A DNA stretch of 39,420 bases from an uncultured Duodenibacillus sp. GTDB taxonomy: Bacteria; Pseudomonadota; Gammaproteobacteria; Burkholderiales; Burkholderiaceae_F. Shown here piece by piece: positions 523-13,259 of the stretch (position 1 is its first letter; the number at the start of each line of letters is the position of its first letter). The position numbers and the translations under genes are program-made. The notes beneath the pieces are model-generated. The model saw nothing but the letters and a program-made list of their open reading frames with translations, searched no databases and had not been told where the DNA came from. Location of the stretch: the NCBI GenBank assembly GCA_944388865.1, contig CALXKM010000001.1, positions 1 to 39,420 on the forward strand. Direction: 5' to 3'.

Positions 523-1806
523 ATGATTCCTGACATTACAGTCCAGAGACTTCGAAGGCTACGCGCCGAGGGGTTCTCTTTACGCAAAATCAGCAGCACG
601 ACGGGCGTGTCCGTCAACACGATACGCAGCTACCTGAGTCAGCCCAACAAAGGGCTGGTCCCAAAACCAACTCAGTTCCGCAAGTCTCGTCTCGATGCGA
701 TTCCGCGAGAGGATTACGAGTCGATGTATTCGGCTTGCCGAGGCAACTACGCTGCCTTGGCGCTGGCTTTTGCTCTTTTTATGAAGGAAAAGGGTAATCC
801 AGACTTCTCTATCAGCCGCAGTGCCGTGAGACGCTACTCGTTGAGCCGCTATCCCGATTTGAAGCAACCGGCGCCTGAGCCGGCGCCATTTTTTGTTGAA
901 CCGGGTCAACAACTGCAAATTGATTTTGTCGAATGCAGATTTCAATTCACCGGTGATGCGCAGCCCTCCAAAATCAAGGTTTTTGAGGCAATCTACAGCT
1001 ACTCAAGGCGTGCTTTCATCCTCATCTGCCCGGATTTGTCCCAAAAGTCATGGCTCACCGGGATCGTCAGATGCCTATCCAAATGGGGGATCCCTCGGCA
1101 AATCTTGTGCGACAATGACGCCGGCCTGGTACGACGTGGCATTCATCCCGGCAAGGCCAAATTCAACCCTCGTTTTTGTTGGCTTTGCGATTCCATCGGC
1201 GTCAATCCCAAAGCTTGTCGTCCATTAACACCTCGAACCAAAGGCCGTGTCGAACGCTTTGGCGGCACCTTGAAAAGCAATGCCATCGCCGTAGCCCAGG
1301 CCCTGATCAACTCAAGCTCTGGTCGAGAGATTCGAACCAACGAGCAACTGCAGGAGTTTGTGGATGAGTGGCTTGTGCTTACAGCCAAACAGCTGAGATT
1401 CCTGCACCACGATGGCAAAACCAAAGCCAGTGAAGATGAGCTTTACGAGATCGAGCGCAAGTTTTTACTTTTCCCCGAAAAACTTTCTTCGCTGCTTAAC
1501 GTCTCCACCTATCCAATTCACGTGTCCGCCCATGGTTCTGTTTATCTGCACGGCTTGCGTTTCTTACTGACGCGGCACGCCAATCAGGATCTGGAAGTCA
1601 CTTTCAGAGCCGACGGCGCCTTCTTCATTACGACGCAAAGTGGAACACCGGTCTTTCAGTCTCAGATTCCGGACGAAAACCTCAGCAAGTACCGATGGAA
1701 CGACAGGCCGCCTCAGGCCAGTCAATACACAGAAATCCCGGCTCAAACTCAGCCAGAAACGGACCCCTATCTGGAATATGTCAAACAACTTTTACTCGAG
1801 GAGTAA
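523..1806 (+). CDS. istA: IS21-family transposase IstA
   Basis: This 427-residue DDE transposase cuts and joins the element ends together with the ATPase IstB. The N-terminal 40 residues form a helix-turn-helix (around LRKISSTTGVSVNTIRSYL) of the kind that binds terminal repeats. The integrase core shows D134 in QIDF, D197/D199 in CDND and E244 in GRVERF, in the order and spacing expected of the family. The ATG at 523 follows GGAGGAAT at the proper distance. istB starts 6 bases after its stop. Length and motifs are complete and no frameshift is seen. Confidence 0.95.
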   Translation: MIPDITVQRLRRLRAEGFSLRKISSTTGVSVNTIRSYLSQPNKGLVPKPTQFRKSRLDAIPREDYESMYSACRGNYAALALAFALFMKEKGNPDFSISRSAVRRYSLSRYPDLKQPAPEPAPFFVEPGQQLQIDFVECRFQFTGDAQPSKIKVFEAIYSYSRRAFILICPDLSQKSWLTGIVRCLSKWGIPRQILCDNDAGLVRRGIHPGKAKFNPRFCWLCDSIGVNPKACRPLTPRTKGRVERFGGTLKSNAIAVAQALINSSSGREIRTNEQLQEFVDEWLVLTAKQLRFLHHDGKTKASEDELYEIERKFLLFPEKLSSLLNVSTYPIHVSAHGSVYLHGLRFLLTRHANQDLEVTFRADGAFFITTQSGTPVFQSQIPDENLSKYRWNDRPPQASQYTEIPAQTQPETDPYLEYVKQLLLEE

Positions 1807-1811
1807 CCATC

Positions 1812-2666
1812 ATGCCTTTGTTTACATCCGACTCCAACGTCACCATCTCTTTGCCGCCGGTGGCTTTTGATCCGTCACTGTGGTCAACTGCCGCAAAACA
1901 ACTCAACCTCAAATACTTGGCCGAACACCCGGATGTAGCCGCTCAATTGCTACAGTCAGGGCTGTCAGCCGATGCCGCTGCGCTTCACATCCTGCGGCTC
2001 GAGTGTGAGTATCGTGCCAGACATAAAACCGTAATGCTCATGGCGATGGCCAAATTCCCCGATGGTGCTCTGACACTTGAAAACTTTGATTTCTCCGTCT
2101 CTTCGCTGGATGAATCTCAGTTCCGGAGCTTGGCTGGACTCACGTGGATGCAGAATCACGTCAACTTGCTGTTCTGGGGCGATTCCGGGCTGGGGAAAAC
2201 GCACCTTGCAGTTGCATTGGGAAAAATAGCCATCGCCGAAAAAGGTTACAGCGTACGATTCATTGCCGCAAATGAACTGATGGAAATGCTTGAGTCAGCT
2301 CGAGTGCATGGAGTATTGACTGAAAAGCTGCGGCTGCTGAATCGAAATGATTTGATCATCGTCGACGAATTTGGATATCCGCTGATGGCTGATCACCCCG
2401 AGTATGCTGCACTCTTTTATGCGTTCATTTCATCGCGCTACAACAAGAAAAGCACCATTCTGACCACAAACCGCCAGGTTAGTGAATGGCCGAAATATCT
2501 GGGCAATGACCAGAAATGCTGCATCGCTAGTCTGGATCGCTTTTTGCATCACTCTATCCGCATTCATTTCACCGGGCTAAGCTACCGACTGAAAAGAATC
2601 CGCGAAGAGCGATTGGCAGGTAATGCAGAATCCGGCAAGCTCATCCGAGCATTAGACGGAGAATAA
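1812..2666 (+). CDS. istB: IS21-family helper ATPase IstB
   Basis: This 284-residue AAA+ ATPase of the DnaC/IstB type forms the oligomer that selects target DNA and stimulates IstA. The Walker A motif GDSGLGKT lies at residues 123-130 and Walker B (LIIVDEFG) around 181-188. An arginine-rich C-terminus follows. The frame stays open further upstream inside istA, but the ATG at 1812 is preceded by GAGGAG and starts just after the istA stop, so it is the likely start. Expression is probably coupled to istA. It is slightly longer than the usual 250-265 residues because of its N-terminus. Confidence 0.94.
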   Translation: MPLFTSDSNVTISLPPVAFDPSLWSTAAKQLNLKYLAEHPDVAAQLLQSGLSADAAALHILRLECEYRARHKTVMLMAMAKFPDGALTLENFDFSVSSLDESQFRSLAGLTWMQNHVNLLFWGDSGLGKTHLAVALGKIAIAEKGYSVRFIAANELMEMLESARVHGVLTEKLRLLNRNDLIIVDEFGYPLMADHPEYAALFYAFISSRYNKKSTILTTNRQVSEWPKYLGNDQKCCIASLDRFLHHSIRIHFTGLSYRLKRIREERLAGNAESGKLIRALDGE

Positions 2667-2729: not shown

Positions 2730-2912
2730 GCATCAGTTTTAAACGCACTTGATGTAGCAACTTACAGCGCACTAAGCGCATCAATTGCGAACGCACCATC
2801 CGTATCTTTATCTGAAGCTCCCGTTGTATCAGAAATAAGCGCAATACCCGTGTCAGAGAGACACGCACCAAACCGCCTTAAATTGCTACAGATGACGCAC
2901 CAGATGTGTCAA
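2730..2912 (-). repeat. Right-end array of 24-bp-spaced transposase-site-like repeats
   Basis: On the plus strand, variants of GTRTCAR (reverse complement of the left motif) begin at 2730, 2754, 2778, 2802, 2826 and 2850, exactly 24 bases apart. The outermost copy lies at 2906. A CGCAC core stands 5' of most copies, for example at 2864-2868 and 2896-2900. The gap from 2850 to 2906 is 56 bases and holds a poorer copy. The array mirrors the one at the left end. Confidence 0.75.
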
Positions 2913-2931
2913 TTCTTCGCGCGCCATGACA
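2906..2931 (-). repeat. Right terminal inverted repeat of the IS21 element
   Basis: This is the inverted partner of bases 1-26, with 20 of 26 matches. It ends in TGACA at 2931, directly at the break in the WG-repeat-like gene. Confidence 0.85.
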
Positions 2932-3715
2932 TTTCTTGACCACGATCGTCAATTAGTCCATAGCGAGTCTGAGACGAAAGGCTTCGCTCGGATTTTTTTT
3001 GCCTTACCTTTGCAGGATTTTTGCCGACGATGAAACACCCGGCGCCGACAGCGCATAGATAGTCATATTGGGGCGGAATAACTTCGTTGCCATTCGCATC
3101 GATTAGCCCCCAGAGTTTGATTTCTACTTGACGCTTTTTGATTTCAACGAACTTGACGATGAGATCTTCATATGCAAGCGGCAGGATTTCCTGACCTCGA
3201 TAGTCAATTAGTCCATAGCGAGCCTGAGACGAAAGACTTCGTTCGGTTTTTTTTTGCCTTACTTTTGCAGGCTTTTTTTCGACGGAGAAACAACCGGCGC
3301 CGACATCGCAAAGATAGTCATTTTGGGGCGGAATAACTACGTTGCCATTCGCATCAATCAGCCTCAAGAGTTTGTGTGCTACTTGACGTTTTTTGATCTC
3401 AATGAGCTTGACGGCTCTCACGCCTGCTGAGCGTCCGTTAAAGTCGGTGACGGTCTGATAAGAGCGGTTCAGTTCTAGTTCCGCCCCGTTCTTTTTAACG
3501 AGCACAATCGTTCCGTCGCTCTTTTTCGCCCAGGCTATGTCGTTGACGAATCTGCGAGCGGTTTCGGTATAGGTGCGATCAGAGACCGGTTGTAATCGAT
3601 CAGAGAATAGGCGGAACTCGGTTTCCCCTTTGAGCTTCAGAAAAAGAAAAGTCCGGCTGCTTGGGATGTGATTTTTCCTCGAGGCAGGGTAGGGACCAAC
3701 GGAGGCACGGTCCAA
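2932..3715 (-). pseudogene. WG-repeat-like protein, 3' end cut off by IS21
   Basis: The predicted protein contains two copies of an 85-residue unit with motifs such as RYGLIDYRGQEILPLAYEDL and LWGLIDANGNEVIPPQYDYL. These resemble WG repeats, which form beta-propeller-like or solenoid folds of mostly unknown role. The DNA copies are 255 bp apart (near 2937 and 3192). The last unit stops after DDRGQE, where the IS21 tip begins; seven element-derived residues then lead to a stop at 2909. The first possible start is TTG at 3715 with no good ribosome site, so the 5' end is uncertain. The gene follows the one at 3728-4168 by 12 bases and may be in one operon with it. Coding-strand A8 and A9 tracts occur in the two repeats. 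Confidence 0.7.
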
Positions 3716-3727
3716 AATTTTTTCGAA

Positions 3728-4168
3728 CTAAAGGTTTGTCGCTCTCGATCCGTCGGCGTTGAGAAAGGTTATGCGTTCGCAGTTTTGATCGCAGGCAACA
3801 AAACAATCGTAGGTAAACGGCAGGACTTCTCCGTAGGGCCATCGCCAGATGTTGCGCACAATAAGAGTACGCGACTTCAACTGCGGATCCGTGTAGCTGA
3901 ATAGAATCCGGTCGACAGGAATGCCGGCAGCATCGTCGGGCGCCGACGGTCGTTCGCTGGACGCAGGCTCAATGACGATTGATCGCGGGCCGTATCGTCG
4001 GTCGCCCCAATCGGGGTCAATGCGGACGTTTTTTTTTCCTTTGCGGCGAGCCTTTGCATTGTCGATCATCTGCTTGATCCAGCGCTGCGGATCGGCGTGC
4101 ATGCGCGCGACAGGCGAGTCGTCTTGGGGGGCAGTTTCACCGGTTGTCTTAGTCTTACTATTAGACAT
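3728..4168 (-). CDS. Hypothetical protein (146 aa)
   Basis: I do not recognise this protein. It is hydrophilic, with a charged N-terminal half rich in K and R and a C-terminal half with many aromatic residues. It has no signal peptide or membrane segment. The ATG at 4168 is preceded by GGAG at a 6-base distance, which favours it over the upstream TTG at 4180. An A9 run lies in the coding strand opposite 4029-4037, in the lysine-rich part. The next gene downstream is the IS21-cut WG-repeat-like gene, 12 bases away. It is transcribed away from the DUF262 pair. Confidence 0.5.
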   Translation of the reverse strand: MSNSKTKTTGETAPQDDSPVARMHADPQRWIKQMIDNAKARRKGKKNVRIDPDWGDRRYGPRSIVIEPASSERPSAPDDAAGIPVDRILFSYTDPQLKSRTLIVRNIWRWPYGEVLPFTYDCFVACDQNCERITFLNADGSRATNL

Positions 4169-4228
4169 GAAAGACTCCAAATGCGAATGGTGGAGGGGTC
4201 AGGGCTTTTGATGGATCGTATAACCTTC

Positions 4229-4348: not shown

Positions 4349-5911
4349 ATGTCGTCAAATCCACGTGCGCAAATCGCAACCATCGCTCAACTCTTTGATA
4401 AAGAGCTTGTTATTCCTAACTATCAACGCCCATATAAGTGGTCTGAGCGAAGCGTCAACTTGCTTATCAACGATCTAAAAGAAATTGCTGACGACTCACT
4501 CTGCTCGAGTGTGAGATATAGGCTTGGAACGATTATCGTCCATCGCGAAGCCAATAAGCTCAACATCGTCGACGGCCAGCAAAGGGTTGTGACGCTTGCG
4601 CTTCTTATGGTTGCTTTCAACAAAATCGAGAATGAAAATGGAAGTGCGGATAGTTGCGAAACCAAATTGAGTGAATACTCTTTTTTGCCTAAGTTCTTTA
4701 ATAGCGAAGAATTCATGGCTAATGCTCTCTCTCGCCAAACTCTCGTGCGGAACTATCGCATCATTGAAGGGCGCGTGCGCTTCTGGGGTAGTGGGCTAAT
4801 ACGAAAAGTTCAGGATGCATTTCAAAAGCGCATCGAGGTTGTCCTGATAGAAGTTGAAGAACTAGACCAGGCTTTTCAAATCTTCGACTCGCAAAATTAT
4901 CGCGGCAAGAACCTTGCTGCTCATGACCTTCTAAAGGCATATCATCTACGATGCATGGGAGAGCTTTCTGCTGACGAACAAATTTCGGCTGTCGAGAAGT
5001 GGGAGGCGCATTCGTCGACTGAAATAGCTGCGCTTTTCGAGAAATACCTGCACAGAATCGGGTGTTGGCGCCTAAATAACAACGCAACTCCCTTCACTCG
5101 TGATGATATTGACGAATTCAAGGGAGTGGATGTAAGTGACGGCTATCTTTACGCTCTGCGTACTTACGCGTCAACTTCTTTGGTGCCGAAACATTGGTCT
5201 GACGTTTGTAAAGCTGGTTCGGAGATTCACTTGCTCAATCAAGAGTGGTGGGATAAAGGCGGAAACATCTTTCAGATAGGTCAACCTTTCATCGCTGGAT
5301 CTGATTTTTTCAAGATGGTCGACTATTACCTAACTTTGGAAGCGGAGCTAGGGAAAAAGGTTGATGCAGAACTAGAAAAAATTGCAAAAATATTTGCTGA
5401 AAAAAACTGTACTGACATCGATAAAAAGGCACAAGCTCTCTTAACCCGCAAAGGGGAAATCTCTCGAGATGTCGGTTTTCAGCATGCTTATGATCTATTC
5501 CGATGTGCTGTTTTGTTTTTCTGTGATCGCTTTGGTCTTCAACTGCTTTTCCAACCAGACACTGAGCCGAGTAACCCTGCTTTGCAGGATACTGCGCAGG
5601 TTCCAAAAGAAGCATTCATCAGACTCTTTACCTGGGCGATGTTGCCCAGAGTCACTAAGCAAAGGCTTGGATTTGCAAGCATCAACAAGTTTGCTCTAGG
5701 CGCTGCCAAAGACTGCGGTTGTTCTGTCAATATTTTTCATCAGCTTGCTTTTGCGAGAACTCCTGACGAATTTCTGAACCTGCCTATTCCTGAAAACGGA
5801 TTTGATGACAAAGATTCTGAAGACTACAAAAAAACAGAATATCGTAAAGGCCTTAAAGCCATTTTGCGCACTATTAACGGCAAGCATGACCTTCGAGGGG
5901 AGGTGAAATGA
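4349..5911 (+). CDS. DUF262 protein, first gene of a two-gene GmrSD-like system
   Basis: This 520-residue protein has the N-terminal DUF262 (ParB/GmrS-like) nucleotide-binding domain. YQRPYKW lies at 25-31, GTIIVH at 60-65, the DGQQR signature at 75-79, and the family helix with NYRGKNLAAHDLLKAYHL at about 176-200. In GmrSD and BrxU enzymes this domain uses NTPs to drive a nuclease against modified phage DNA. No IEH...P / GN...N nuclease signature is visible in this protein, unlike its neighbour. Its stop overlaps the next start by 4 bases (ATGA), so the two are coupled. The start at 4349 has only a weak GAG ribosome site. Composition is AT-rich compared with the hyp region (bases 4621-4680 have 23 G+C of 60), which suggests transfer. 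Target modification and substrate are unknown. Confidence 0.85.
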   Translation: MSSNPRAQIATIAQLFDKELVIPNYQRPYKWSERSVNLLINDLKEIADDSLCSSVRYRLGTIIVHREANKLNIVDGQQRVVTLALLMVAFNKIENENGSADSCETKLSEYSFLPKFFNSEEFMANALSRQTLVRNYRIIEGRVRFWGSGLIRKVQDAFQKRIEVVLIEVEELDQAFQIFDSQNYRGKNLAAHDLLKAYHLRCMGELSADEQISAVEKWEAHSSTEIAALFEKYLHRIGCWRLNNNATPFTRDDIDEFKGVDVSDGYLYALRTYASTSLVPKHWSDVCKAGSEIHLLNQEWWDKGGNIFQIGQPFIAGSDFFKMVDYYLTLEAELGKKVDAELEKIAKIFAEKNCTDIDKKAQALLTRKGEISRDVGFQHAYDLFRCAVLFFCDRFGLQLLFQPDTEPSNPALQDTAQVPKEAFIRLFTWAMLPRVTKQRLGFASINKFALGAAKDCGCSVNIFHQLAFARTPDEFLNLPIPENGFDDKDSEDYKKTEYRKGLKAILRTINGKHDLRGEVK

Positions 5912-8034
5912 GTCAAGAAACTTCGAGTGGAATGAAAGATATTCCAGTGTTGAGCATAGATAGGCTTTTCGATGATGGTATGTGCTATGTGGTGCCTATG
6001 TATCAGCGGAGTTTTGCCTGGACCAAATCTGAGCTCGAGCAACTTATCGAGGATATTTGTTGTTCTACTCTTTCCGAATATTTTCTTGGCTCACTGGTTG
6101 TAGCACAACGCCAAGGAGAGTATGAAGTAGTTGACGGTCAGCAACGTCTAACGGCTCTTTTTTTGATCCTCTGTGCCCTTGAACAAGGGTGGAAGGGGCC
6201 ATTGCCGCTTACATATGACTGTCGGAAGAAAGCTCAGAAAACCCTTGAATTTTTCGCAAATAAAGCCAACTGGACGGACGATGGAGACTTTTATCATCTA
6301 AATCTTGAAGAACTAAATGCTTTTGACATGGGTATTTATGTAGGCATGCAGGCCATTCGTGATTTTTTTCGCTCTGCCGATTTTAAAGTCAAAGCCGAGA
6401 GATTCGCTGGAATACAAGATCTTGCCTCCGAGAAGAAGTGTGACACATACGAGATTTTCAAAAAACAACTGAGTAAAGTTCGCATATTGCGTATTCAGGT
6501 TCCTGAAGGTACAGATTTAAATCTGTATTTCGAACGCATGAACACTAGAGCCGAGCAACTTGAGCAAACAGACATCATTAAAGCTCGATTGATGTCGACA
6601 ATTGGAAACGAAAGTCAAGCGAAGCTCTTTGCTTCAATATGGAATGCCTGTTCAGATATGAACGGTTTTGTCCAGATGGGGTTCAATCCTGAGATGCGGA
6701 CAAAGCTCTTTTGCGGTGAATGGACACAACTTAACGTCAATGCGCTTGCCTGTGAATTAACGCCCTCTGACGTTGTTTCTCAGACTGATCAGACTCAAGG
6801 GAGTAATTCAACTTCGGGTGATGAAGCTTCGAAAACATTGATGCAATTGCTGGAGGGACCAGGGACAGAACTCATACGCGGTTACAGAAATAATAGTGAC
6901 AGCGGGGGAGATGAGTCTTGCGCTCATTTTCTCAGTATTATCAGTTTCCCAGTTTTTTTGCTGCATGCCATGAAGGTCTTTGTTAAGCGCGAGTGCAAGC
7001 TTGACTTAGATGTAACGGATGTTTTGCAACGCGAACTTGACGATTTGAAGCTCGTATCTATTTACGAAGAAATGCGAAAATGCTTCGATCACCCAGAAGA
7101 CGTTGATATAAAGAACAAATCTAGGAGTCTTGCCATAGAGTTCATTCAGTGCCTTCTGACGCTTCGCTATCTTTTTGATAAATACATAATAAAACGTGAG
7201 CTGTTGGAGAATCATGGTGGTATCTCATCAGAGGGCAAGTGGGCATTGCATAGTTTGAAAACAGTAACGAATAAGTCACGCAACGGAATACAACATCACA
7301 CTGCGCAAACTCCGGATTTGCAATTTGAATCGAAAGAATCGGTTGAAACCAAAGAACAGTCAGTGTCGAACTCTACTGCAAACTCGGCCAACAAGCGGTG
7401 TCTCATGATCGAGTCGTGTCTGCGTGTAGCCAATACATCCCCGAGATCGATGCACTGGATTACGAAGATTCTCGATTACCTCTACGTCAAGTTTCAAAAT
7501 AAAGAGCTGATCGAGCTTAATGCAATCGCTTCCATTGCCGAGACCTTGGCGGCAGATGAAGTAAGAAAGTATCTCGACGAATGGCGCGAGCCTCAAGATT
7601 CGCGACCTTATAGCAGCGGATTGGCTACGCCGCACATTGTTTTTCACTTTCTCGACTACTTGCTTTGGAAAGAAGATCCTACTGAGGCAGAGGCTAAAAA
7701 GTTCGAGTTCAAGTTCCGTAACTCAATCGAGCATTGGTATCCGCAGCATCTTTCTAAAGACGTCGGTGAAATTTGGCCACGTCAGGACGGGGTTGACGAC
7801 TTCGGCAATCTCTGTATTGTGACGACGAGTACAAATTCCAAGTTTTCCAACCAGTCGCCGGGACAAAAAGTCATAAATAAGAAACTAATCGAAGACGCAA
7901 GCCTCAAGCTCAAGAGAATGGCCCAGATGACGCAACAGGTATCCAGATCCGACCCTGTGCTGGCCGAGTGGAGGGAGAACTATTTGGAACACCAGAAGCA
8001 GATGATCGCCCTGCTGGAAAGGTCATGCTCTTAG
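5908..8034 (+). CDS. DUF262 and DUF1524 (HNH-like) protein, second gene of the pair
   Basis: This 708-residue protein repeats the DUF262 module, with YQRSFAW at 32-38, DGQQR at 76-80 and a FERMNTRAEQLEQTDIIKA helix near 210-230. It ends with a DUF1524-type His-Me nuclease domain: IEHWYP at 607-612 (H609), then FGNLCIV at 632-638 (N634) and an Asn-rich strand to N648. The middle 350 residues are unassigned, with a Ser/Thr/Asp-rich linker around 290-330. The architecture is that of GmrSD/BrxU type IV restriction enzymes or SspE-like effectors. A role in phage defence follows from family knowledge and the mobile neighbourhood and has not been shown. The frame is complete. Confidence 0.85.
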   Translation: MSQETSSGMKDIPVLSIDRLFDDGMCYVVPMYQRSFAWTKSELEQLIEDICCSTLSEYFLGSLVVAQRQGEYEVVDGQQRLTALFLILCALEQGWKGPLPLTYDCRKKAQKTLEFFANKANWTDDGDFYHLNLEELNAFDMGIYVGMQAIRDFFRSADFKVKAERFAGIQDLASEKKCDTYEIFKKQLSKVRILRIQVPEGTDLNLYFERMNTRAEQLEQTDIIKARLMSTIGNESQAKLFASIWNACSDMNGFVQMGFNPEMRTKLFCGEWTQLNVNALACELTPSDVVSQTDQTQGSNSTSGDEASKTLMQLLEGPGTELIRGYRNNSDSGGDESCAHFLSIISFPVFLLHAMKVFVKRECKLDLDVTDVLQRELDDLKLVSIYEEMRKCFDHPEDVDIKNKSRSLAIEFIQCLLTLRYLFDKYIIKRELLENHGGISSEGKWALHSLKTVTNKSRNGIQHHTAQTPDLQFESKESVETKEQSVSNSTANSANKRCLMIESCLRVANTSPRSMHWITKILDYLYVKFQNKELIELNAIASIAETLAADEVRKYLDEWREPQDSRPYSSGLATPHIVFHFLDYLLWKEDPTEAEAKKFEFKFRNSIEHWYPQHLSKDVGEIWPRQDGVDDFGNLCIVTTSTNSKFSNQSPGQKVINKKLIEDASLKLKRMAQMTQQVSRSDPVLAEWRENYLEHQKQMIALLERSCS

Positions 8035-8321: not shown

Positions 8322-9605
8322 CTACCTCGGCACCCAGTCCGGCAATGCCGTATAGAGATCAGGGAAACCCATTCTCAGCACGATGTTGTGCTGCTTCTTC
8401 GACACCTCAGACCAACGTCTACCGCCACGGCCGTCGAAGATCATGTAGATGCCCTCGAGGTGATTCTTAAGTTCTTCAAAGCTCATATCCTGGGCCAAAG
8501 GCTCAAGAATCTTCATGCCATTGCCGTCATCAACCGTCACCGACTCCTTCATCAAGGCGTACAGACGGCTGAGAATCGTCATTGCAACAAAGGAAATGAT
8601 GAATTTGCCTTCGGCCGTATTTTCTCTGTGGGAGCGAACGACCGACATGTCTGCCGTGCTCTTGCCCGCCTTGAATGTCTTTTCAATCAAATCTCTTGTA
8701 CCGTAAATTTCAATAGCCTCTTGAGCCGTACAGGGCATGGTTGTGATGTTGCAGAAAACCCAAATTAACGCGTGGCCTGATCTTTGGCTTCATGATCAGG
8801 TTAATGGGCGGTACCTGGCTTGTGTGAGCCCTTGAAGTACTTCAGCCAGCGGCTCTTCAGCAACGGACATTCTGCAACCTTTGCAGTCGGCTTCCATTGA
8901 AGCCATTGTTTTTCAAAATTTTCAAGCATTCGTCTGAAGGCCATGTGCTCCATGTGCGTCTTTGTGTCGCTGCGGTAGACGCACCCAAAACTGCCGCTCC
9001 TTGCCGTCTTCAAATTTGTGCTCGACAGGAAAGCTTCGATCCCAGCACTCATGACCAGCGATGTACGACGAGCTTTGCCTAAGAAAAGGCAAGGCCTCCT
9101 CAATGGCATCCTGCACTCAGGGTCGGTACGGGTGGCTATGACAACACGGCCCTTGGTATCAAAAAAGCTGGCGATATTGCGTCCAGGGCAGAAGCCGCTA
9201 TCGAGGACAGCGGCAAAAATACGTTTGCCATCGGTAAGTTCGTCAAAACGAAAAAGCATGTCCTTGACCGTCGTGACATCGGTAATGTTGCACGGAAGCG
9301 TACGAAAAAGGACCGGCAAGCCCGATTTATTGCCAACTAGAAGAATCAGGCCAATCTGTTGCTGAAAGCCGCCTGTTTTGCCCAAACCAAGTTGCGCATA
9401 GGTGATCTCCTGGGCTTGAGAAGCAATCTCTGTGGCGTCAAAGCAAAGAACTTCATTCTCGGGAAGTCCGGCTATACGGGCTCCGAAGAAACGTTTTCTC
9501 CATCCCGGCTCGGCTGGCAGCGACGCCAGCAGATCGGTCATGTCTAGAAGTGATTACATCGACATAAGGCGACAGTTTGTTGACCGTAGGGAGCGAGGTA
9601 TAAAC
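8322..9605 (-). pseudogene. Decayed IS1634/IS4-type transposase
   Basis: Pieces of one DDE transposase can be read in different frames. A N-terminal scrap LPTVNKLSPYVDVIT lies at about 9550-9605. The main block from 9541 holds VLCFDATEIASQAQEITYAQ, FQQQIGLILLVGNKSG and FAAVLDSGF (two catalytic Asp regions). A middle piece is in another frame (9116 to about 8975). The frame then returns to the first until a stop at 8801. The C-terminal part (8738-8322) holds EAIEIYGTRDLIEKTFKAGK, the usual YREK/RD-E region with the catalytic Glu. At least four frame changes are needed, near 9545, 9110, 8980 and 8740-8800. It cannot give a full transposase. Confidence 0.8.
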
Positions 9606-9983: not shown

Positions 9984-12900
9984 ATGATGTATATACAATA
10001 CGAAAAAGCAAATAAGATTATTGGAAATATGCAAAGAAAGAATAACGGTTTTACAGCTCTGGCTTGGGCGGTTCTTGTTTTAATAGGTTATTCGCAAGAA
10101 AATAATGCCGCTCAGTATGATTATCTGACAAGTGGGGCGCTCGATCATATTAGTAACAATATAATTTTTAAAAACGAACAAAATTTTAGTAATAATACTG
10201 TTAATCTAAATATTAGTGCTGTTCCCAAGAAAACAACTCTTTCGGTTGTAACCTCTGAGTCATTGAATTCTGCCTCCTGGGGCAATAATAAATTTAATAT
10301 TTTCTATGATAAAGATTTTTCTTCGAGTATTTTGCGAGGTTTTTTTGTTAAAAATTCAACTTTTGCGTTGATTGAGGGTAACGAAGTTGTTGTCAATGTA
10401 GAAGGTAGTCCTTCCTATGATGCAGGAAACATTCATGGTGTGCGTCTTGACAGTGTGAGTTCGAATGGTGATATTCAATTGAGTGATGATTCTGCAATGG
10501 TGAAAAACAATATATTGTCCGTTATAGGTTATAACAATCAAGGAAATGCAATACTTACTGTAAGTGCGTACAAAGTTTCGGGTGTTCTAGAAGGAAATGT
10601 TTTAAAAATTGTCGATTCTACACTTGGTTCGTTTGGTGCTATTTCTGCCTCTGGTATTGACAAGTCGTATATTAAAAACAACAAAACAGAAATCTATAGA
10701 AGCGTTTTTTACAAGGGTTATGGATCTTATTCTAGCGGAATTCGCAATTATGGAGGGATGAGTGTTAACTCGCTAACAGTTTCTGATTCGATTTTGCGAG
10801 CGAAGAATAGTGACTCATACTTGCATGGTCAGTATTTTACTGGTAATTGGTTGGGTTCAAACAAAATTCTTGAAGGCGGAAGTCTTGAAGTCGAAGGTAT
10901 TTTGACAATTGAAAATAATACTCAAAAAACACAAACAGTGGACCTGTCAGGCTCATATGCTCTCGATTCAGGAGGCGTCTCTAAGAGCTCAGTACGATTT
11001 AATAAGGCAAAAGTTGAGTCTGTCTCTGATTATGATTACGATGTCTCTATTCAAGTTTATGGAGGTTGTACTGGAGACGATGACACTCAGGTCGGATATG
11101 CTTCTGAAAACGAAGTTGGAATGCTTGAGTCTACTGTCGTCATTAGCAAAGGAGTTTCGATATTTGCGGCTCGGACGAAGTCAGGAACTGTATTGCGGAA
11201 TAAGCTTAAGTTGCGGGATTCTAGTGTTGTAGCTAGTAATGTACTTATGTATGGTGGTAAGGTTGCTGAATTTGAACTTGAACAGCAGCAAGGTAAGTCC
11301 ATCGGGGAATCTCTGAACAATTCTATTCTGATAAGTAATTCTGATGTGAGCGGTGCTGCAGTGTCATTGATTGCTGGTCGCGCTGAACTTGGTGATGCTA
11401 ACGATAATTTTACGCAAATAGAGGACAACTCAAAACTCAGCAGTAGCTCAACAATGGAGATTTCCGGTGGAATTTCAAGAGAGGGAAGTGTCGCTCGAAA
11501 TAAGGTCGCGGTTAAAGGTATTAACTTAAATTCAGACGTATTGGCTATTTATGGCGGAAAAACTGAAAATAATGGGCGTTCCTCAGAAAATTTAATTATG
11601 GTAGATCATTCTCAGATAAATGCTGAGAAGGCAACTTTAATTGCTGGCTACTCGCAAAATGGTGATGCAGATAGTAATTCGATTTGTATACTAAATAACT
11701 CCAAACTTGCTGCCAACGTTGTCGGAGGGTGGTCTGGTTTAAAGGTCGAATCAACTTCTGTTTTAATTGATGCAAGTACTGTAGAAGGACATGTATCTAT
11801 TTTCGGTGGAAAAGAAACGACTCAGGGTAATGGAACGTTGACTGTTGCTGGCTTTTCTAACCTTGAAAGTGCGGGATTGCACCCACATATGATTTCTGAT
11901 TACGATGGAATATCTGATACCGAGCTGGTGTTTGATGGTTTTGCTGGGAGGGTAAGCCAAATTGGATTCGTGGACGTCAATTCTCAGAATGAAATACAAA
12001 ACATTCATGCGTTTGACAGAATCAAGCTCCTGAATCAATCATGGTCTGAGTCTTCGCCGATTATTACTGTTTCAAATGCAGAAACGGCATCCGTTTTTGC
12101 GAAGTCTTCATTTAATGACAACTCTCTGTCTTTTGTGAATCCTGAAGCGATTCTTCCTGGAAGTTCTATTACGCTTGTGAGTGTTGAAAACGATGGTTCA
12201 CAAACTCTTTTGTATGTGGATCCAGATAGCCCCGATACCCGAACACTGAAGGGGAATGCAGGTACTTCGACTGAATTTACAGGTGATATTTTCTTCGGGG
12301 ATAAGGAGATTACGTATTCCATCGAGGATGTTGAACCCGCTGAACAGACGTTCTTGGTTGGTGACGCTCGGGCAGCAGCCTCAGCTTTCGTCAATCAGGG
12401 GTCAGATCTTCTTGAGCGCGTATTTCATGGCTTTACGCTTTCAAGGGAGAAGTACGGTTTCATGACGTTTGCCACAGCTGAAGGCATCAAGAGCAATTAC
12501 GATATGTCGGATTCTCTCAAAATCAATGGCTGGAACTTCCTTGCAGGGGTGCGTTCGGTCAATTCGGTTTTGTCGGGAGATCTTACAAGCGCCGCATTCT
12601 TTGAATATGGCAAGGGCAACTATCGTACTCACAACGAGCATTTGGGGCTTTCGTTCCGTACGGATGGTGATATCGAGTATGCAGGCGGTGGACTCGCTCT
12701 GCGTTATATGACTGAGGGCGGTTTTTATGGCGAAGCTTCCGTAAGGGCTGGTCAGCTCTCTTCCGACATCAGCCATGCTTTGATGGACAATAAGGGTAAT
12801 TTTTACGACGTTGACACTGAGTCGTTCTATGCTGGCGTTCATGTTGGCCTTGGCAAAGTGTTCTCCATTACGGATGCTTTCGAAGTTGATGCATACGGAA

Positions 12901-13259
12901 AATATTTCTACACGTATACAGATTCTGACGATTTCATGATCAATTCCGAGAAGTACAGTTTTGATCAGATATCGAGCAATCGATTCCGTCTGGGGGCGAG
13001 AGCAAGTCATACAAAGGACGGCCTGACATTTCTGTTTGGTTTGGCTGGAGAGTATGAGTTCTCAGGGGAAAGCAATATGACTGCAGCAAATACTCCCTCT
13101 CAGACTTCTGATTTCGGCGGTTTCAGCGCCTTTGCAGAAGCTGGAGTTTCATTAATCCCGTCTTTAGGATCGCCTTGGCAGTTCGATTTGCAGGTTCGCG
13201 GCTGGCAAGGCACTCGTGAGGCAATCACCGGAATGCTTACGATCAATTACCTGCTGTAA
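9984..13259 (+). CDS. Autotransporter (type V secretion) outer membrane protein
   Basis: This 1091-residue protein has an N-terminal signal region (hydrophobic TALAWAVLVLIGYS, likely cleavage near NNAAQ at about 42). A long passenger follows, to about residue 790. The passenger is made of loosely repeated beta strands with Asn/Ser/Gly-rich turns, such as IYGGKTENNGRSSENLIMV and LIAGYSQNGDADSNSICIL. This pattern suggests a right-handed beta-helix adhesin. No protease or lipase motif is seen. The linker helix DARAAASAFVNQGSDLLERVF leads into a C-terminal 12-strand barrel ending INYLL; the last residue is Leu, where an aromatic residue is more usual. Passenger DNA is extremely AT-rich (10141-10200 has 11 G+C of 60), while the barrel is ordinary (13141-13200 has 30 of 60). 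The first of two ATGs fits the ribosome site. Confidence 0.92.
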   Translation: MMYIQYEKANKIIGNMQRKNNGFTALAWAVLVLIGYSQENNAAQYDYLTSGALDHISNNIIFKNEQNFSNNTVNLNISAVPKKTTLSVVTSESLNSASWGNNKFNIFYDKDFSSSILRGFFVKNSTFALIEGNEVVVNVEGSPSYDAGNIHGVRLDSVSSNGDIQLSDDSAMVKNNILSVIGYNNQGNAILTVSAYKVSGVLEGNVLKIVDSTLGSFGAISASGIDKSYIKNNKTEIYRSVFYKGYGSYSSGIRNYGGMSVNSLTVSDSILRAKNSDSYLHGQYFTGNWLGSNKILEGGSLEVEGILTIENNTQKTQTVDLSGSYALDSGGVSKSSVRFNKAKVESVSDYDYDVSIQVYGGCTGDDDTQVGYASENEVGMLESTVVISKGVSIFAARTKSGTVLRNKLKLRDSSVVASNVLMYGGKVAEFELEQQQGKSIGESLNNSILISNSDVSGAAVSLIAGRAELGDANDNFTQIEDNSKLSSSSTMEISGGISREGSVARNKVAVKGINLNSDVLAIYGGKTENNGRSSENLIMVDHSQINAEKATLIAGYSQNGDADSNSICILNNSKLAANVVGGWSGLKVESTSVLIDASTVEGHVSIFGGKETTQGNGTLTVAGFSNLESAGLHPHMISDYDGISDTELVFDGFAGRVSQIGFVDVNSQNEIQNIHAFDRIKLLNQSWSESSPIITVSNAETASVFAKSSFNDNSLSFVNPEAILPGSSITLVSVENDGSQTLLYVDPDSPDTRTLKGNAGTSTEFTGDIFFGDKEITYSIEDVEPAEQTFLVGDARAAASAFVNQGSDLLERVFHGFTLSREKYGFMTFATAEGIKSNYDMSDSLKINGWNFLAGVRSVNSVLSGDLTSAAFFEYGKGNYRTHNEHLGLSFRTDGDIEYAGGGLALRYMTEGGFYGEASVRAGQLSSDISHALMDNKGNFYDVDTESFYAGVHVGLGKVFSITDAFEVDAYGKYFYTYTDSDDFMINSEKYSFDQISSNRFRLGARASHTKDGLTFLFGLAGEYEFSGESNMTAANTPSQTSDFGGFSAFAEAGVSLIPSLGSPWQFDLQVRGWQGTREAITGMLTINYLL

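Follow-up and report, generated by a model that had tools for sequence, protein, structure and literature searches.

A coupled DUF262 gene pair in an uncultured Duodenibacillus as a probable two-subunit type IV restriction enzyme of the TgvAB and GmrS1/GmrSD2 type

Background

The stretch of DNA analysed here, which we call the window, comprises 39,420 nucleotides of contig CALXKM010000001.1 from an uncultured Duodenibacillus sp. (assembly GCA_944388865.1) and contains two adjacent genes, A and B, that both encode DUF262 proteins and overlap by the four bases ATGA. A first-pass annotation, made from the sequence alone, proposed that they are a two-protein type IV defence system. The question raised by the locus is whether both proteins belong to one restriction enzyme and, if so, why such an enzyme should need a second DUF262 protein. 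We consider it very probable that A and B form one two-subunit, nucleoside triphosphate (NTP)-gated, modification-dependent (type IV) restriction enzyme of the TgvAB and GmrS1/GmrSD2 type, because the pair is conserved as neighbours and shares homology with pairs identified as matches of TgvAB and of the ECOR17 system.

The first-pass annotation implied that a two-protein DUF262 system would be new; such systems were in fact published in 2024 and 2025 (PMC11411939, PMC12137116, PMC12373910). TgvAB of Vibrio cholerae VPI-2 (J Bacteriol 2024) is described as lying inside a type I restriction-modification (R-M) operon, TgvA having DUF262 and TgvB having DUF262 and DUF1524; both genes are required against T-even phages, and defence is abolished by DGQQR mutants of either protein and by TgvB H571A or N602A (PMC11411939). 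The same paper reports 1,341 matches to tgvAB homologues in 41,142 genomes against 79 five-gene operons, so the embedding in a type I operon is not essential; its authors leave the role of TgvA open. In the GmrS1/GmrSD2 system of Escherichia coli ECOR17 (Nat Commun 2025), both genes and residues E582/H583 of GmrSD2 are reported to be required against T-even phages (PMC12373910). Both systems are described as targeting phages with sugar-modified cytosine (PMC11411939, PMC12373910). GrwAB (Nat Microbiol 2025) also consists of two DUF262 proteins, one with DUF1524, both required (PMC12137116). There the nuclease-bearing protein is named first, and the partner has an extended tail with unknown domains and is described as distinct from TgvA (PMC12137116 and PMC12409362, the latter a review covering TgvAB and GrwAB).

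Results and discussion

Domains and active-site residues of A and B

The overlap, coordinates and strand of the two genes are exactly as the first-pass annotation had them (Table 1). The A/B junction reads GGAGGTGAAATGA, where the ATG of B (5908-5910) overlaps the TGA of A (5909-5911). According to the list of open reading frames (ORFs) and the sequence, both frames are uninterrupted end to end and the coupling through GGAGG and ATGA is intact.

Table 1. Features of the A/B locus and its flanks, in coordinates of the window
Feature	Position	Strand	Basis or remark
IS21-type istA/istB frames (IS, insertion sequence); flanking context, not part of the system	523..2666	+	Single place in the 53-contig assembly
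Gene A (TgvA/GmrS1-like), DUF262 + DUF7834, 520 aa	4349..5911	+	ORF, Pfam, profile comparison with TgvA-like proteins
A: GmrSD_N (DUF262) with YQR, DGQQR (residues 75-79), FDSQN (179-183)	4382..4945	+	Pfam; 59-row alignment
A: DUF7834 (PF25202) domain	4976..5827	+	Pfam; same family in TgvA-like L149 and ECOR17-type L154
Shine-Dalgarno-like GGAGG before gene B, within gene A	5899..5903	+	Sequence, by eye
ATGA overlap, A stop / B start (translational coupling)	5908..5911	+	Sequence
Gene B (TgvB/GmrSD2-like), DUF262 + linker + DUF1524, 708 aa	5908..8034	+	ORF, Pfam, profile comparison with TgvB-like proteins
B: GmrSD_N (DUF262) with DGQQR (76-80), FERMN (208-212)	5965..6594	+	Pfam; alignment
B: middle region in linker position, no Pfam family, conservation among B proteins	6610..7629	+	Alignment, profile search, Pfam
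B: GmrSD_C (DUF1524) His-Me nuclease domain, H609, N634, N643	7651..8004	+	PF07510; alignment
Broken IS1634-type transposase remnant; flanking context	8322..9541	-	Three places in the assembly

Searches with hidden Markov models, which had been suggested as a check, found PF03235 in both A (E 3.6e-30, residues 12-199) and B (E 1e-31, residues 20-229) and PF07510 only in B (E 1.9e-10, residues 582-699), and the YQR and DGQQR signatures of both proteins and the DUF1524 end of the second, with H609 and N634, are likewise as first described. A is also nuclease-less, as claimed, but it is more than a DUF262 protein, since residues 210-493 match a second family, PF25202/DUF7834 (E 2.4e-41). The roughly 350 residues of B that had been left unassigned indeed have no Pfam family, yet they are conserved among B proteins, both in the alignment and in that a profile of the middle alone retrieves B proteins. 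Their position corresponds to that of the helical linker described for GmrSD enzymes (PMC11411939).

Regarding the active sites, we aligned the window pair with 58 other loci, which remained from 76 pairs of the genome scan described below after length limits and a required nuclease-profile match (61 pairs) and the removal of three more. Across these 59 rows YQRPY, DGQQR and FDSQN are invariant in A; rows were not selected for these motifs, yet the DGQQR and FDSQN patterns had been used in the genome scan itself. YQR, DGQQR and F208 and N212 of FxxxN are invariant in B, as are the nuclease residues H609, N634 and N643, these last partly by selection, because a match to the nuclease profile was required of every row. 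The window pair retains every one of these residues, and on this evidence both DUF262 pockets and the nuclease of B look functional.

Other family collections were less informative. At E 0.01 neither A nor B matched an NCBIfam family. The PADLOC models matched 35 families for A and 32 for B at E up to 1 (the best 25 of each were listed), with the HEC-06 and Orf5 models in the lead. Naming the pair by PADLOC models was dropped, because none distinguishes the system and the matches are mostly through the shared DUF262.

Comparison with the published two-protein systems

The comparators were found among our own matches. Seven loci (L147-L153) among the weaker Vibrionaceae matches were followed, and in each of them a DUF262/DUF1524 gene comes after A, although the A frame of L152 is a short one, 282 bases away from that gene. 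The B proteins of L149, L150 and L151 have H571 and a GN at 593, and N602 was checked in L149; these are the published TgvB positions. L149 and L151 moreover show by Pfam the gene order hsdM-hsdS-A-B-hsdR, as in VPI-2, and we take L149-L151 to be TgvAB orthologues. A Klebsiella plasmid pair, L154, has E582/H583, occurs at 80% cover or more in 251 of 5426 E. coli genomes, and is taken, by E582/H583 only, as the ECOR17 type. In both L149 and L154 the A protein combines GmrSD_N with DUF7834 (E 2.2e-43 and 9.3e-77 respectively) and the B protein combines GmrSD_N with GmrSD_C (Pfam).

Profile comparison (hhalign) gave an alignment of 363 columns between A and the TgvA-like set (E 2e-41) and one of 588 columns between B and the TgvB-like set (E 1e-71), and the tail of A alone matched the TgvA-like proteins over 124 columns (E 1.3e-9). 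By blastp, identity to the ECOR17-type pair was 28% for A (residues 8-481) and 29% for B (residues 9-703). Another Klebsiella type, L015, gave 29% and 33% respectively; against the TgvAB type only residues 20-220 of A were aligned, and B reached 23%. By this measure TgvAB is more distant from the window pair than the ECOR17 type and L015 are. In a joint tree of A and B, a fully supported long branch separates the TgvAB-like rows from the rest, with the window pair and the ECOR17 type on the same side.

The window pair therefore has the make-up of the TgvAB and GmrS1/GmrSD2 type: two co-directional, abutting genes with the nuclease-less DUF262 gene first, an A protein whose DUF262 carries QR, DGQQR and FxxxN and is followed by a TgvA-type (DUF7834) tail, and a B protein with DUF262 and a C-terminal DUF1524 bearing H...N...N. 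It shares gene order, domains, catalytic residues and profile homology over most of both proteins with TgvAB, which differs in belonging to a separate long-branch group and in its place between hsdS and hsdR, whereas the neighbours in the window are WG-repeat, IS21-type and IS1634-type frames. GmrS1/GmrSD2, as seen in L154, likewise consists of a DUF262+DUF7834 gene and an overlapping DUF262+DUF1524 gene, although identity is low and the host group is different. GrwAB resembles the pair in having two DUF262 proteins, one with DUF1524, but its order is reversed and the window A carries DUF7834; this separation follows the published description of GrwAB, not its sequence. Finally, B has the DUF262-linker-DUF1524 layout described for the single-chain enzymes GmrSD, BrxU and SspE and, unlike these, is accompanied by an A protein, in the window and in the three further genomes matched by the profile of the B middle.

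The claim of a two-protein type IV system is thus upheld by homology along most of both proteins, together with the adjacency across phyla described below. The window pair is a diverged example of a known system type, and the locus itself is ordinary.

Conservation of the pair across genomes

An alignment of seven A proteins was searched against one genome per species (84,980 species), and the best 80 of at least 422 confirmed loci were kept. Their hosts are Bacillota, Bacteroidota, Pseudomonadota, Spirochaetota, Fibrobacterota, Actinomycetota, a Methanobrevibacter and others. A B gene lies downstream of A on the same strand in 76 of these 80 loci, a count biased to pairs because tblastn joined the DUF262 segments of A and B. 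Six of the 76 B frames had no match to the nuclease profile (L016, L018, L059, L066, L078 and L087), and these are at contig ends or are broken frames. Among the four loci without a counted B, L054 has a B fragment below the cut-off and L083 and L085 are at a contig edge, with 145 and 0 bases left; the fourth, L092, is discussed with the alternatives. Most junctions are overlaps (56 of 76, nine of them by four bases as in the window), while 18 are spaced by 0-20 bases and two are wider.

Fairer counts come from searches with the tail of A or the middle of B alone, whose profiles are free of DUF262, though built from paired loci. Among 398 Pseudomonadota genomes the A tail matched four (E up to 1e-6) and the B middle four (E up to 1e-3); these were the same four genomes, including that of the window, and A and B are adjacent in all of them. 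The phylum of this set follows from G199, a genome of the window's class whose DNA is identical to that of L080, a locus of Buttiauxella agrestis. The A tail also matched four of 391 genomes from the class to which Clostridium vitabionis belongs, the genome of that species among them, and a B-type DUF262 gene adjoins each, one of them short (247 aa). In 329 Vibrionaceae genomes, all 21 strong A matches (at least 464 bits) have B, the 21st being L082. Non-conservation of the pair as neighbours, which would have spoken against the first-pass proposal, is therefore refuted.

Furthermore, the trees of A and B agree. The correlation of their distances was 0.954 over 90 pairs, and none of 2000 permutations was as high (best 0.338); without the TgvAB-like rows it was 0.877 over 84 pairs, again with none of 2000 as high (best 0.14), and shared host ancestry adds to both values. 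The 90 rows were obtained from 114 pairs, reduced to 99 by length and nuclease-profile limits and then by the removal of near-copies. A and B descend jointly.

The pair also occurs on plasmids. Matches to A were found in 925 of 72,556 plasmid records (861 from Klebsiella) and matches to B in 1053 (908 from Klebsiella), the pairing itself being read in the fetched loci L013-L015, L154 and L155. The L015-type pair was present at 80% cover or more in 77 of 5426 E. coli genomes. In phage genomes, the search with A gave two partial matches, covering 37% and 20% of it. Two of the plasmid loci have a particular arrangement. In an Aliarcobacter plasmid (L014, 5663-14332) A and B lie between PD-(D/E)XK nuclease and UvrD-helicase genes that overlap the pair on both sides, as if it had been inserted into an operon, which may be likened to TgvAB inside its type I R-M operon. 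B is fragmented in a Picosynechococcus plasmid (L013, 9412-12147), where an IS1 transposase gene separates the DUF262 part from the nuclease part. Other neighbourhoods, hand-picked and uncounted, place the pair beside OLD-TOPRIM and UvrD-type genes (L012 and L126), which we take to be Gabija-like, with a type I R-M operon (L179), and with the anti-phage gene hhe (L178).

Proposed mechanism and alternative explanations

In the proposed enzyme B is the GmrSD-like subunit, in which an NTP-binding DUF262 is connected through a linker to a His-Me (DUF1524) nuclease that would cut DNA, and A carries a second DUF262 with all its motifs, joined to DUF7834 and without a nuclease. The two proteins most likely pair through DUF262, with A replacing one protomer of a BrxU-type dimer, a pairing suggested by analogy because BrxU is described as a dimer that changes state with NTP (PMC10952713). 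Contact with a modified base would then most likely lead to NTP turnover in both pockets and release the nuclease of B on the incoming phage DNA. We infer the heteromer, the role of A, and the activity and target of this particular copy.

Several observations weigh against this two-subunit enzyme or limit it. L092 has an A gene and no B within 6 kb downstream. The co-occurrence counts, obtained with profiles made from paired loci, speak for this A/B group and not for GmrSD enzymes outside it. Because of the divergence of the window pair, with a best identity of 36% among the 80 loci kept from the genome scan and an end branch of 1.64, its target may differ. The TgvAB-like and ECOR17-type comparators were assigned by residue positions or gene order and not from the named strains' own records. 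Lastly, the tail of A showed no profile similarity to the middle of B (hhalign E 0.27) or to its nuclease part (E 0.12), and a mechanism for this tail does not follow from the comparison. The idea that the A tail is a nuclease-less copy of the B linker was rejected for lack of such similarity.

It might also be that B alone is a complete single-chain enzyme of the GmrSD/BrxU type and that A is an accessory, either a decoy that draws off inhibitory internal proteins of the phage or a brake on self-damage, which we regard as improbable. B does have both GmrSD_N and GmrSD_C, the overcoming of a phage-encoded inhibitor is one role of TgvA named as possible by the TgvAB authors (PMC11411939), and simultaneous induction of both genes is reported to be toxic in ECOR17 (PMC12373910). 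However, neither gene alone is reported to protect in TgvAB or ECOR17 (PMC11411939, PMC12373910), the profile of the B middle, specific for this B group, found B in four of the 398 Pseudomonadota genomes with A beside it each time, and all 59 aligned A proteins keep DGQQR, a motif that a mere decoy would not need.

That the pair responds to some other signal than modified bases, for example phosphorothioate DNA as SspE or DndI do, seems to us very unlikely, even though the best-matching solved chains for both profiles are 9jfl_B, 20yv/20yw and SspE. The code 9JFL occurs in a paper on IscS-DndBCDE-DndI, the codes 20YV and 20YW occur in one on SspE, and one PADLOC SspE model matches B best in its nuclease part. 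The top-scoring stretches against those solved chains nevertheless fall in DUF262, none of the eleven window proteins scanned was assigned by Pfam to a dnd- or ssp-type gene (no search was aimed at such genes), and those nearly full-length relatives for which tests are published target phages with modified cytosine (PMC11411939, PMC12373910). Very unlikely too, finally, is a decayed or inactive pair left over between insertion sequences. Its position between the IS21-type frames and the broken IS1634-type remnant, its long branch, and the lack of a full-length A in related genomes would suit such a leftover, but the open frames, the intact coupling and the retained invariant residues argue against it. 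We keep to the two-subunit type IV enzyme as the most probable reading.

Genomic setting and origin

The pair does lie between an IS21 copy and a decayed IS, as had been noted, namely the istA/istB frames and the IS1634-type remnant of Table 1. The AT-rich setting that was also noted is only partly distinctive: G+C is 44-47% over 4-8 kb of the window against 52-60% over 13-23 kb, but other parts are AT-rich too (36-46% G+C at 10-13 kb, 47-50% in parts of 23-27 kb). Full-length A is absent from all nine same-genus genomes (84-100% complete), and among the 41 genomes searched only the window's own has one. In the joint tree, a 'quick' tree with the TgvAB-like rows set as outgroup, the window pair falls within a set of 19 rows (support 100 in the Shimodaira-Hasegawa-like approximate likelihood-ratio test, SH-aLRT), 12 of them from Bacillota; its exact place there is unsure because of the quick tree and its own long branch of 1.64. 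At least four of these rows come, according to their record titles, from the rumen, reticulum or faeces (L023, L033, L039 and L075). Host phyla are partly clustered on this tree, with 20 changes where the minimum is 9 and the shuffled mean 35, a scatter that fits transfer of the pair as a unit without proving it. The natural reading is that the window pair was probably acquired horizontally.

The surroundings show some further features. The interval between the IS21-type frames and gene A contains a frame for a WG-repeat protein (PF14903) and, next to it, one that has no Pfam family (2909-4180, minus strand). Beyond the IS remnant, a large frame at 9984-13259 (1091 aa) has no Pfam family at E 1 and is autotransporter adhesin-like by eye. 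The IS1634-type element has copies at 8322-9541 of the window, at 27920-28284 of contig C28 and at 1949-3178 of contig C51. The genome contains a second, different adjacent DUF262 pair on contig C28 (7894-9951 and 9955-11922 of locus L009; 685 and 655 aa), of which both proteins have GmrSD_N and neither has PF25202 or PF07510 at E 0.01, with an IEHW stretch towards the end of the second. An autotransporter-like frame is found near that pair as well (L009 4433-7009), and two of the three IS1634-type copies are no more than about 4 kb away from the two DUF262 pairs of the assembly. DUF262 doublets, judged by match positions, are also present in the same-genus genomes G736 and G737.

Meaning for the family

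The name DUF7834 was not found in the literature searched, and no title or abstract opening, which is what was covered, joined TgvAB, GmrS1/GmrSD2 and GrwAB through it. As a tentative and rather unlikely extension, DUF7834 may mark the A subunits of a two-subunit type IV family from an archaeon to Bacillota, Bacteroidota and Pseudomonadota; A would then be a second NTP-gated modification reader, the A:B heteromer would read two marks, or both strands, simultaneously, and base modifications outside the range of known GmrSD enzymes would be read by the Bacillota-rich branch that includes the window pair.

The analysis connects DUF7834, a Pfam family of unknown function, with proteins matching the published partner subunits TgvA and GmrS1; it also shows that A and B stay together from one phylum to the next. 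Because of both, the question why a second DUF262 protein is needed, which comes from the TgvAB paper (PMC11411939), becomes testable on many diverse pairs.

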